Positions 1-26,727 of a stretch of 39,004 nt of DNA are shown here, in pieces; within the stretch, counting starts at the first letter, position 1, and the number at the start of each line of letters is the position of its first letter. The notes under the pieces are model-generated. The model was not told where the DNA came from. It worked only from the letters and a program-made list of their open reading frames with translations, and did no database searches. Made by a program: the position numbers and the translations under genes. The DNA lies in contig JAFRHR010000052.1 of NCBI GenBank assembly GCA_017433195.1, positions 1 to 39,004 of the forward strand. The letters are read 5' to 3'. Origin of the DNA: a bacterium (GTDB taxonomy: Bacteria > Cyanobacteriota > Vampirovibrionia > Gastranaerophilales > Gastranaerophilaceae).

Positions 1-310
1 CTCAGCTTCAAAAATCCTGTCGGATTTTTCCGCTTCGCGCTACACATGATTGTATTGAATTTGCTCCACGCTCGGTTTTTAGATTGGATACAAATTATTG
101 CTCCACGCTCAAAGTAGTAGAAACAACATCTTGGATTATTTCCGCTCGCCAACTCTTCACTCAGCTTCAAAAATCCTGTCGGATTTTTCCGCTTCGCGCT
201 ACACATGATTGTATTGAATTTGCTCCACGCTCGGTTTTGTCGTTGCTTCGTTATCACTGCCGCAACTTCAAACCTCGCTATCCGGAATTTCATTCCGTCC
301 GCAAATTCAA
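1..310. repeat. Complex dispersed repeat, left copy, with an internal 79-bp direct repeat
   Basis: Positions 1-79 and 160-238 are the same 79-bp sequence, separated by an 80-bp linker. Each unit contains a small hairpin (AAAAATCC-TGTC-GGATTTTT) and words such as GCTCCACGCTCGG. The reverse complement shares blocks in the same order with 2440-2805: GCGAGCGGAAATAATCC, GAGCAATAATTTG, AAAACCGAGC and AATCCG..AGGATTTTTGA. The short ORFs that cross it have no ribosome binding site and simply follow the repeat, so I treat it as non-coding. The window starts inside the element, so its left end is unknown. Confidence 0.8.
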
Positions 311-311
311 C

Positions 312-337
312 AAAAAAAAACCTTTCTGATCGAAAGG
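312..337 (-). terminator. Intrinsic terminator on the minus strand
   Basis: Read on the minus strand, a 6-bp stem (CCTTTC/GAAAGG, 5-nt loop) is followed by nine T residues. No minus-strand protein gene lies to its right before the plus-strand gene at 687, so it must end a short transcript. This is the main reason for proposing the small RNA at 312-415. Confidence 0.65.
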
Positions 338-415
338 CCCTTGGAATCTTTTGTATAATTCCTCGTGTGTGTAGAAGGTTAGTGTAGGTTGTATGAAAGG
401 TTTGGAGTTGTGTGC
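312..415 (-). ncRNA. Predicted small RNA, about 105 nt
   Basis: A minus-strand interval between a promoter-like element (421-457) and an intrinsic terminator (312-337). The interval from 415 to 338 has no ATG on this strand, so a peptide is unlikely. The 5' half is C/A-rich and mostly unstructured (AACTCCAAACC, AACCTTCTACACACAC). The 3' half has a GGAAT/ATTCC hairpin and then the terminator stem. CCTTCT-like stretches can pair with Shine-Dalgarno sequences, so base-pairing regulation is possible. The start site is estimated and I recognise no known family. Confidence 0.4.
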
Positions 416-420
416 TGTCT

Positions 421-457
421 TGTATATATATAAAGTATTTTTATATACTATGATTGC
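421..457 (-). promoter_or_regulatory. Third, weaker copy of the shared upstream element
   Basis: On the minus strand this has CAAT, 16 bases, ACTTT, then a run of TA steps. That is the same order and spacing as the elements at 20532-20573 and 26405-26447. The GTATATATAC palindrome is degenerate here and the CGGGAA tail is absent. It would place a start site near 415, at the beginning of the predicted small RNA. Confidence 0.4.
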
Positions 458-686
458 CTAAAGTATATAAATTTGTTACAAAAATTAATATATTACCCTA
501 AAAACCTTTTATATCGGGCTTCTTCTATTTTTGTTTATTTCATTTATACACCATTCAGAGGATATATTTGCATATTTTCTAAAGAGTTTAAAACACATGT
601 CGATAAAGCATGTTGACTTATTAAATAAAAACATTAAATACCACCATGTATATGTAAGTAAAATTGAATAGATAGGAGAACATACT

Positions 687-2345
687 ATGGGTATGGCAGC
701 ATCACAGGCAAGATATTTATCACTTGTCGCAAGAAAAACCAATGTTGAATGGGAAGGTCAACAAATTAACCAGTCAAGAACAGCACTGGCAAACAAGACC
801 GCAGCATTATTTAACCAGATGTTAGGAATGCAGGTACCAGATTGTCCGGATTGTACTGATTTCACAAATGTACAGTATTCGTTCACAGACGGCTTGAACG
901 CCTCAGTAATTGATAAGTATTATCAATTATCTTCACCTGACCCCGAATACAACTATGTAGTAACACACCACTACAACACAAACGTTTACACAGGATCTGT
1001 TAAAAAACTGAATGACCCGCAGGTAAGTTTCGGAGACAGAAACTATGTCGAGAATTTCCCTGCACGAATTGAAACAGAACAATATGCAGATGCGGTAAAT
1101 TCAAGAAGACACCTTTATAAAGAATGGCAAGTCGCAACCTTACAGCTTAAAAATGATAAGGCCGAAAATCCTGATTATATAACAAAACAAGCATTAGGCG
1201 GAGGGCAAGGAGATAAGACAATAGCCAATGACTATGACGGATATACATATGATGATAGCGATGGAGAATCCGGAAAACTCTCATGGGTATTCAAGAAAAT
1301 TTCAGATGCTAATTTTGAAAATGATATGTCTTTAATAGATGGAGAATTACAAGCCTTTTTAGATACGGATACTTTTAAAGATGAAATTGCAACTTATCGA
1401 ACAGCTCATACTACGCCACCTGAATCCGACTATACAGATATTCAAGTGCTAAAAGAAATTCTGCTTCGTGATGATGACGGGAACTACTGCAGAAAAGACA
1501 AAATAGCAGCGACAGTTGCTGACGCAACGAAAAAATTCTCAATTTATAACATTGAAGATTCTGTTGCACATTCAGAAAAAGTTGTCGCAGATGCAAAGAA
1601 AGCTTATGATGACAATGAAGCAATAATAAATCATTTTCATGAAACATACAGAATTAATCCGAAATATGTCGGAAACTGTGAATTAACGGAATTAACTCCT
1701 CCGTTAACAGATGATGAATGGGCTGAATTATCACAGTGTGTTAAAGATTTTGATAATAACAGTTATAATACATTCTTACAGGAATACTTCGATATTGATC
1801 CGGATACCCCTGATTATTTCCCTCAATATACTTACAGAGGTGATGGCGTATTCAAATTCACGTTAAACGGCGTTACCCAGTATACTACAATGGCAGATTT
1901 GGCAATGAGTTATATCAACGCTAATGATCCTCCGGGGAACGATATCGATTCGCAATACAAACTGGAATACTACAATGCTTCATACATTGAAACACCAATT
2001 GAAAAAACAGAAAGAGCATTGTTAGAAACAGACGGACAGGGCAGATTTAAATCAGTAAGATTTGAAGATGACAGCGTAACATACACTTTGAATTGCGAAA
2101 CAAAAGTAAATGAAGAAGCGTATAACGATGCAATGAATCAGTACTACCATGACGTATACTTATACGAAAAAGCAATTGCTGATATCAACGCTAAAACAGA
2201 AATCATTCAAAACCAGGATAGAACTCTTGAATTACGTCTGAAACAGTTAGATACAGAGCAAAGTGCTCTTTCAAACGAAATCGATGCAGTTAAAAAAGTT
2301 CTCAAAGACAACATCGAAAAGAGTTTCAAGACATTCGGAGAATAA
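687..2345 (+). CDS. Unrecognised 552-residue protein with helical N-terminus and C-terminal coiled coil
   Basis: I cannot assign a function. The start is well supported (TAGGAGAA, then ATG). There is no signal peptide. Residues 1-45 look like an amphipathic helix beginning MGMAASQARYLSLVARK. The middle (about 50-440) is rich in Asp, Asn and Tyr and has a cysteine pair (CPDCTD) near residue 55. Residues about 480-552 are a strongly predicted coiled coil with LELRLKQLDTEQSALSNEID and end in a short SFKTFGE tail. Conserved ends around a variable acidic middle suggest a secreted or assembled structural protein, but that is inference. The gene stands alone, has a long AT-rich 5' region, ends at a strong terminator and is bracketed by inverted dispersed repeats. 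Confidence 0.85.
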   Translation: MGMAASQARYLSLVARKTNVEWEGQQINQSRTALANKTAALFNQMLGMQVPDCPDCTDFTNVQYSFTDGLNASVIDKYYQLSSPDPEYNYVVTHHYNTNVYTGSVKKLNDPQVSFGDRNYVENFPARIETEQYADAVNSRRHLYKEWQVATLQLKNDKAENPDYITKQALGGGQGDKTIANDYDGYTYDDSDGESGKLSWVFKKISDANFENDMSLIDGELQAFLDTDTFKDEIATYRTAHTTPPESDYTDIQVLKEILLRDDDGNYCRKDKIAATVADATKKFSIYNIEDSVAHSEKVVADAKKAYDDNEAIINHFHETYRINPKYVGNCELTELTPPLTDDEWAELSQCVKDFDNNSYNTFLQEYFDIDPDTPDYFPQYTYRGDGVFKFTLNGVTQYTTMADLAMSYINANDPPGNDIDSQYKLEYYNASYIETPIEKTERALLETDGQGRFKSVRFEDDSVTYTLNCETKVNEEAYNDAMNQYYHDVYLYEKAIADINAKTEIIQNQDRTLELRLKQLDTEQSALSNEIDAVKKVLKDNIEKSFKTFGE

Positions 2346-20310: not shown

Positions 20311-20499
20311 CTAATCAAGTAATGCCTCTAACAATGTAGCTGCCTTTGCGGATGATGCACTGCTGCGAACTCTGCTTCTGTGAATATAAGTTCTGAGTGC
20401 TTCTCTTATTAATTCAGATCTTGATCTGTTTTCACCATCTGCTACTTCATCAATCTTGCCTAAAAATTCTTCCGGCATTGAAATTAAAACTCTTGCCAT
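20311..20499 (-). CDS. Ribbon-helix-helix (CopG/Arc-type) transcriptional regulator
   Basis: A 62-residue DNA-binding protein. Residues 2-8 (ARVLISM) form the beta strand that inserts into the major groove; two helices follow (EEFLGKIDEVADG, then SRSELIREALRTYIHRSR). The C-terminus is Ala-rich and short. This size and layout match stand-alone RHH regulators, which bind palindromes as dimers. No toxin gene is next to it, so an antitoxin role is not supported. GGAGA precedes the ATG. Upstream lies a 43-bp element with the perfect palindrome GTATATATAC, also found upstream of the gene at 26479; autoregulation is a reasonable inference. Confidence 0.88.
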   Translation of the reverse strand: MARVLISMPEEFLGKIDEVADGENRSRSELIREALRTYIHRSRVRSSASSAKAATLLEALLD

Positions 20500-20531: not shown

Positions 20532-20573
20532 TTCCCGTATATATACAAAGTATTTACTTTTTTAAAAATTGAC
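20532..20573 (-). promoter_or_regulatory. Shared upstream element, copy A
   Basis: On the minus strand this reads GTCAAT, 16 bases, ACTTT, then GTATATATAC (20537-20546) and GGGAA. With one flanking base it is almost identical over 43 bases to 26405-26447, and it sits at nearly the same distance (32 bases) from its start codon. The spacing does not fit a simple sigma-70 -35/-10 pair at the GTCAAT box. Confidence 0.7.
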
Positions 20574-26404: not shown

Positions 26405-26447
26405 AGTCAATTTTATAAAACATAAATACTTTGTATATATACGGGAA
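26405..26447 (+). promoter_or_regulatory. Shared upstream element, copy B
   Basis: GTCAAT, 16 bases, ACTTT, the perfect palindrome GTATATATAC (26433-26442), then GGGAA. It is about 39 of 43 bases identical to copy A at 20532-20573, and ends 31 bases before the ATG at 26479. Such identity between two non-coding stretches in front of unrelated genes points to a regulatory role. Confidence 0.7.
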
Positions 26448-26478: not shown

Positions 26479-26727
26479 ATGGCAATAGGCGCAAGAGATA
26501 AGATTGATCGTTTGTTAGTTCAAAAATATCAAACAGAACAAGTTGACAATCATGACATTGAATACAATATGGTAGACGCAAGAGAAATGATGAGTGCTAT
26601 GAATGATTACGCATCAGTTCAGAGAAACATGTTAGCACTTTCTTCAAGATTAAAAATGGTTTGTTATTCTGTTAACGCAAACAATGCACAATACAGAAGC
26701 ATCAGACCATTAAAAGGGCTGTGTTAA
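26479..26727 (+). CDS. Small unrecognised protein, 82 residues
   Basis: Not recognised. AAAAAGGGGA before the ATG supports the start. It is helical, without signal peptide or membrane segment: MAIGARDKIDRLLVQKY, then a second helix (REMMSAMNDYASVQRNMLAL), and a C-terminal tail ending in KGLC. The size and helical hairpin pattern could suit a secreted WXG100-like or adaptor protein, but it has no WXG motif. It has its own promoter element (shared with the ribbon-helix-helix gene) and its own strong terminator, so it is an independently controlled unit rather than the end of the signalling operon. Confidence 0.75.
   Translation: MAIGARDKIDRLLVQKYQTEQVDNHDIEYNMVDAREMMSAMNDYASVQRNMLALSSRLKMVCYSVNANNAQYRSIRPLKGLC

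Follow-up and report, generated by a model that had tools for sequence, protein, structure and literature searches.

The window, by which we mean the whole contig of 39 004 nucleotides that was analyzed (contig C40 of a genome of 1.58 Mb in 69 contigs, 84.6% complete), almost certainly contains a previously uncatalogued small-RNA gene on its minus strand at 313–423. We call this RNA type A, and its features are collected in Table 1. A sequence-only reading had described a promoter-like CAAT-N16-ACTTT on the minus strand, followed by about 105 bases free of ATG and then a hairpin with nine T residues. That observation holds, and it understates what the window contains. The promoter reads GGCAATC-ATAGTATATAAAAAT-ACTTTATATATATACAAG, with its core at 457–429; ATATATATA follows directly after ACTTT, so that the motif stands as described except for an extra T, which is the last T of ACTTT itself. 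The ATG-free stretch extends over about 105–111 nt and ends in a hairpin at 342–316 and the nine T residues. The start of the RNA is predicted near 423. Relatives do not all lack an ATG; in many of them ACACATGAGGAATTA yields a frame of only 3 codons.

Table 1. Features of the type A small-RNA gene, further copies of its promoter in the window, and other small RNAs predicted under the same promoter.
Feature	Position	Strand	Sequence or pattern	Comment
Small RNA (type A)	312..423	-		Predicted 5′ end near 423; about 105–111 nt; covariance match 313–402(-)
HLR1-like direct repeat	475..490	-	TATTAATTTTTGTAAC (TGTWAM-N4-TGTWAM, 11/12)	Presumed OmpR-family response-regulator site
Core promoter	429..457	-	GCAATC-N15-ACTTTATA	Consensus GMAATY-N15-TACTTTATATATATGTAAG
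Block 1	393..402	-	AACCTTTCAT	Conserved, unpaired; predicted to pair with GAAAGGT-type leaders
Block 2	382..392	-	ACAACCTACAC	Conserved, unpaired
Block 3	368..383	-	ACTAACCTTCTACACA	Most conserved single-stranded part; invariant columns
Small hairpin	343..362	-	GGAATT-loop-GATTCC	Pattern kept in 138/138 copies
Intrinsic terminator	312..342	-	Hairpin + nine T
Second promoter copy	20544..20572	-		2 mismatches; before 62-aa ORF 20311–20499, MARVLISMPEEFL...
Third promoter copy	26407..26435	+		2 mismatches; before 82-aa ORF 26479–26727, MAIGARDKIDRLL...
Type B RNA	L209		CTCTCTCTTCTT
Type C RNA	L210, L221		CCCTAATTCCCTTCCTA
Type D RNA	L206		ACTACACTTCACACA
Type E RNA	L196/L410; own genome C26:11639–11662	-	CTCTTAATATCCTCGTGTTTATTT	Sequence lies before terminator

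The 111-nt RNA of the window is predicted to fold with an energy of –16.8 kcal/mol, against –8.6 ± 2.4 for shuffled sequences (z = –3.4). Its 5′ 60 nt are left unpaired, and are followed by a small hairpin and then by the terminator. Over 138 distinct copies, which are related to each other and hence not independent, the 44-nt core has a mean unpaired probability of 0.78. When 29 copies are aligned, the CACTAACCTTCT...ACACAYGAGGAATTA core is almost invariant, and the unpaired part holds three AACC-type blocks, AACCTTTC, AACCTAC and AACCTTCT. The small hairpin is never broken. One of its pairs varies between U-A and U-G, and no compensatory change was seen in it, so covariation is uninformative here. 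The terminator is found in every one of the 138 copies, its arms showing 51 different sequences, and a search confined to a narrower stretch still finds it in 137 of 138, compared with 32% of shuffles; a scan of the window by itself gave four terminators where 2.1 ± 1.5 were expected. Type A thus shows the features by which a trans-acting, terminator-ended small RNA was tested: its own conserved promoter, an intrinsic terminator and variable neighbors, and no conserved reading frame.

The surroundings of the gene within the window have features of their own. Dispersed direct repeats (ctcagcttcaaaaatcctgtcggatttttccgc... and similar, identified by eye) at 1–300 and 2440–2820 flank the small-RNA region, and these may create spurious open frames. 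An ORF of 552 amino acids at 687–2345 (+) diverges from the small RNA; a homologue was recognized by eye in L004, and Pfam gave no match. The HLR1-like box is situated between this ORF and the small RNA and could act on both.

How widespread is the type A RNA? A covariance model (R1, 93 positions) was built from the alignment of 29 copies, a 30th that was cut by a contig end having been dropped. A covariance search in related genomes had been proposed as a check on the gene, and R1 matches 154 of 191 genomes in the family to which the window belongs, titled Candidatus Gastranaerophilales in their records. Among those of good quality the figure is 134 of 160, and 36 of 41 genera are represented. 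The window itself is matched at 313–402(-) with an E value of 4.4e-11. Searches at the level of the class and the phylum matched 225 of 382 and 146 of 386 genomes, respectively, and among the matches listed every genome is the window's own or one of its family. A simple DNA search matched 185 of the 191 family genomes, many of them through the promoter alone. At least 113 stretches were matched in a pattern scan of named genomes; among the 80 loci listed most titles are Candidatus Gastranaerophilales, Melainabacteria, Cyanobacteria bacterium or uncultured bacterium, and the few labelled otherwise, such as Brachyspira or Acinetobacter, are taken for misnamed bins. Many genomes have at least two copies, some of them in tandem about 230–320 nt apart. 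Rfam 15 has no family matching the window at or above its gathering threshold. The core pattern found no match in viral contigs, and a phage origin is thus unsupported.

Variants of the RNA were also observed. L257 and L258 (genus g2) have a form with CACACTAACCTTTTACACATTGAG and a GC-rich terminator that lacks the GGAATT hairpin and may represent another branch of the RNA family. Variant type A copies adjoin a CoaD-like protein (by eye) in L254–L255, and another variant is present in L256.

The sequence-only reading had staked the gene on conservation of its promoter, spacer and terminator in relatives, and regarded the promoter as a variant of a recurring element. Both expectations are borne out. 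With R1 matching 154 of 191 genomes, the core promoter GMAATY-N15-TACTTTA is present in 131 of the 138 distinct copies and the 15-nt spacer is identical in all 131, alongside a terminator in 137–138 of 138. Written out by position, the element is G[C/A]AA[A/T][T/C], 15 nt and a TACTTTA-like string. Upstream lies a direct repeat, TGTWAM-N4-TGTWAM. Of the 130 distinct copies with enough upstream DNA, 124 contain it at a score of at least 11/12, compared with 2% of shuffles, and the core promoter always follows it at a distance of 33 or 32 nt. The spacing of four nucleotides is specific, since spacers of 1–3 and 5–8 give counts of 2 to 16 and strong enrichment occurs for spacer 4 alone. The feature by which an HLR1 site was tested, a direct repeat with a period of 10 bp that precedes the core promoter, is therefore present. 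Indeed, published HLR1 sites of RpaB, for example TTACAATCGTTTACAA (other strand) as given in PMC6331805, match the same pattern. Reading the box as an inverted repeat (TGTTA-N7-TAACA, at least 9/10) is a weaker but possible alternative, at 82 of 130. An NtcA box was rejected; exact GTAN8TAC occurs in 5 of 130 copies, compared with 2.3 for shuffles.

The small RNA is likely to be under the control of a response regulator. The window's own genome encodes two OmpR-type regulators whose best NCBIfam matches are MtrA/RpaB/WalR-like. They score 199.6 and 204.8 bits where the RpaB cut-off is 330, so no RpaB equivalog was found in this 84.6% complete genome. Because both fall below the equivalog cut-offs, we infer only that the regulator is an OmpR-family protein of RpaB/WalR-like type.

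The promoter is not confined to type A. In the window's own genome the core pattern, when two mismatches are allowed, occurs 111 times and the reversed pattern 52 times; when one mismatch is allowed, it occurs 67 times in G085 and 42 times in G187, where the reversed controls number 5 and 4. Dozens of protein genes are preceded by this promoter, and most encode uncharacterized proteins. When ten proteins were searched with Pfam (nine with the promoter, together with the product of the window's 687–2342 ORF), one exceeded the curated cut-off, a 4-alpha-glucanotransferase of GH77. Homologues of the 62-aa and 82-aa ORFs that follow the second and third promoter copies of the window have exact promoters in G085 and G187. 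Within the promoter-defined regulon (L192–L221 and L272–L332) a similar PKFGL/FKYGL-type C terminus was noted in L192, L207, L216, L314 and L332; perhaps it is a sorting signal.

The same promoter also precedes at least four further small RNAs (types B to E), predicted in the own genome as transcripts that lack an ORF and end in a terminator. The 24-nt string of type E (up to two mismatches) is found in 52 of 60 family genomes, with none for the reversed control, and the promoter lies upstream in 25 of 30 loci. Type E is even more conserved than type A.

What would type A pair with? The CCTTCT-type stretches of its 5′ half had been suggested to pair with ribosome-binding sites, and target prediction against such sites was proposed. 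Across ribosome-binding regions at large, type A binds no better than its shuffles, of which 8 in 100 do as well. The partners that are enriched are leaders under the same promoter. An initial lead came from the own-genome leaders, where the longest complementary run averaged 6.36 compared with 5.76 in shuffles (reached by 0 of 200); the ΔG was reached by 10 of 200 shuffles, and the comparison with control genes, using 17 regulon entries of which one is the RNA's own downstream frame, gave p = 0.03–0.04. A first test on 28 leaders of two other genomes gave a ΔG matched by 6 of 200 shuffles and a longest run matched by 33 of 200; further leaders were added afterwards.

The final set comprised 74 transcripts from three genomes (the own genome, G085 and G187, two of them of one genus), with start codons picked by script and other small RNAs excluded; an earlier set of 77 had contained three that were other small RNAs or doubtful. 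Strong pairing (ΔG ≤ –18) is predicted within nucleotides 0–60 of the leader for 20 of 74, whereas the two 60-nt segments that follow show it in 2 and 1 of 74. Shuffled RNA gives 6.3 ± 2.0 on the same leaders, and none of 150 shuffles reaches 20. The mean ΔG is –13.4 in the first 60 nt, compared with –8.7 and –9.0 in the following segments (Wilcoxon p = 1e-6). For G085 and G187 alone the numbers are 14 of 54 against 0 and 1 of 54, with 3.8 ± 2.0 for shuffles, none of 150 reaching 14. Non-regulon genes of these two genomes reach ΔG ≤ –18 in 4 of 60 cases (Fisher p = 0.005 against the regulon). The regulon as a whole shows no significant shift relative to non-regulon genes in G085 and G187 (p = 0.21), and the strong tail alone differs; therefore only a subset of the regulon would be targets.

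The predicted duplexes have a consistent location. In 23 of 24 predicted targets (ΔG ≤ –16) the duplex spans the ribosome-binding region, so the proposed pairing with ribosome sites would apply to these targets, while such sites at large remain near the level expected from composition. An ordinary AGGA, GGAG or GAGG near the start is present in 7 of the 24, compared with 34 of 46 other regulon genes. The best example is L312, where TGTGTAG and AGAAGGTTAGT are predicted to pair with ACTAACCTTCTACACA, that is, with nearly all of block 3. Over 25 homologous pairs between genomes, target status agrees: eight are targets in both, 13 in neither and four in one (Spearman 0.60, permutation p = 0.0015), many of the pairs lying within one genus. 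Two genomes that have no R1 match provided 15 leaders, of which one had ΔG ≤ –18 and three ΔG ≤ –14. These pair more weakly than 77 leaders of other genomes (p = 0.02); they are a poor negative control, because divergent small RNAs with this promoter occur in the two genomes themselves. A search of 60 genomes revealed no long conserved target in trans: a 14-nt complement of the core (up to one mismatch, RNA copies and variants set aside) was not enriched, with about 12 occurrences and about 49 for the reversed-pattern controls, both being hand counts. Pairing with co-driven leaders is well supported by the computation.

Type A could be a genuine small RNA driven by this promoter and yet act on other partners: on the type E RNA, on a protein, or on a handful of unrelated messages. 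In that case its complementarity to the leaders would stem from composition, C/U-rich facing A/G-rich, and from an initial transcribed sequence held in common. We regard this as unlikely, while giving it appreciable weight. In its favor, the 5′ part of type A has an exact complement to type E of at least 14 nt in 60 of 137 copies, compared with 0 of 1370 shuffles, and the complementarity spans 14–18 nt in many relatives. The composition-level result for ribosome-binding sites in general points the same way, as does the finding that type E pairs with leaders no better than its own shuffles. Yet the window copy has just 6 nt complementary to type E. Moreover, on the regulon leaders type A outperforms its dinucleotide shuffles in both data sets; types B, C and D, whose promoter is of the same class, do not exceed theirs on these leaders.

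The genomic neighbors bear on whether the element might instead act in cis, as an attenuator or a leader (L10-like, for instance) of a minus-strand gene that follows it. In 34 of 85 neighborhoods the first ORF downstream shares the strand of the RNA, and cmscan aligns L10_leader (RF00557) weakly with the terminator and A/T-rich flanks at 304–440(-), the best Rfam match below threshold. However, its 18.3 bits are far under the gathering score of 44, no such gene was seen downstream, and we reject identity with the L10 leader. Nor does any single gene follow the RNA: neighbors vary among genera, and the downstream ORF is on the opposite strand in 37 of 85 cases. The gene glnA adjoins RNA copies at 25 of 85 sites (L079–L158, a representative being confirmed), and elsewhere the adjoining genes encode TsaD, GAPDH, and sulfide/dihydroorotate dehydrogenase-like, lipoamide dehydrogenase-like and alpha-mannosidase-like proteins (the last by eye). 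A cis role for a neighbor such as glnA was rejected, as other genera carry other genes. With a terminator closing every full copy, and with only an open frame in repeat-like sequence downstream in the window, a cis-acting role is very improbable. That there is no gene at all, the element being a chance pair of promoter-like and terminator-like strings in AT-rich DNA or an untranscribed repeat, is scarcely credible. Within the window the promoter string alone does not exceed chance (15 matches at three mismatches or fewer, 14.7 expected), so that comparison had to decide, and promoter, spacer, box, RNA core and terminator are conserved across the family in differing neighborhoods.

We therefore favor, as fairly probable, a reading in which type A is an antisense RNA, present in multiple copies and controlled by a response regulator, that forms a feed-forward loop with the regulon to which it belongs and most likely limits translation of its targets. 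An OmpR-family (RpaB/WalR-like) response regulator would bind the HLR1-like box and control the small-RNA promoter. Window 313–423(-) would be transcribed as a trans-acting, terminator-ended RNA, and the three AACCU-type blocks of its unpaired 5′ domain would form duplexes in the cell with leaders at two places, the 5′ end and the ribosome-binding region. Its partners would be a subset of the messages driven by the same promoter class. The RNA would thereby probably control, by base pairing, messages switched on by its own kind of promoter, and regulator, small RNA and targets would make up the loop, with repression rather than activation as the presumed effect. Multiple and tandem copies would raise the dose of the RNA. 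More tentatively, a larger circuit is possible in the Gastranaerophilales, where one response-regulator and promoter class would drive many mostly uncharacterized genes and at least five small RNAs. Type A would pair with a subset of the leaders and, in many species, with type E; the small RNAs and messages of one promoter class might therefore titrate each other.

There are known systems of related design. PsrR1 of Synechocystis acts in a feed-forward loop with the HLR1-binding OmpR-family regulator RpaB, and pairs with ribosome-binding regions (PMC6202907; HLR1, PMC6331805). Type A is similar in its putative loop with an HLR1-binding OmpR-family regulator and in its predicted pairing with ribosome-binding regions. 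The two were compared by sequence through Rfam alone, and they differ in that PsrR1 targets photosynthesis messages. The window's host family is regarded as non-photosynthetic. LhrC1-5 of Listeria monocytogenes, which depend on the two-component system LisRK, are multi-copy and have three redundant C/U-rich motifs that bind ribosome-binding sites (PMC4132741). Type A likewise is multi-copy, with three repeated C-rich single-stranded blocks and putative two-component control. However, the UCCC motif of LhrC is absent from the window RNA (by inspection), the type A blocks being AACCU-type, and the predicted targets of type A share its own promoter class.

The sequence-only reading had also seen a likeness in style, without homology, to the cyanobacterial Yfr RNAs, and for the features tested this was right. 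Like Yfr1 and Yfr2/Yfr10, type A is nearly lineage-wide and has an ultraconserved, unpaired C/A/U-rich motif before its terminator; its phylogenetic range is another. The Yfr2 motif is GGAAACA. This sequence is present in 0 of 138 copies of type A, as is the undecamer ACUCCUCACAC, and membership of Yfr1/Yfr2 was rejected. According to PMC2190773, Yfr1 has ACUCCUCACAC unpaired and a 5′ stem-loop before it; no such stem-loop was found in the window copy, the sole one folded for this. In having a complementary partner RNA, type E, type A also resembles the Yfr1–Yfr2 pair as described in PMC6778093. The best reading is that type A would work like PsrR1/RpaB or LhrC/LisR, but not, by the features tested, like Yfr1.

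We found no report in the open-access literature of a regulatory RNA in the gut relatives of the cyanobacteria (Melainabacteria, Gastranaerophilales, Vampirovibrionia). The type A RNA can be put to a direct test, since its promoter is sharply delimited and a regulator box, a list of targets and a family-wide model accompany it. It suggests that small RNAs are under HLR1-type control beyond the photosynthetic cyanobacteria too, and its promoter class joins a large set of unknown genes into one regulon.
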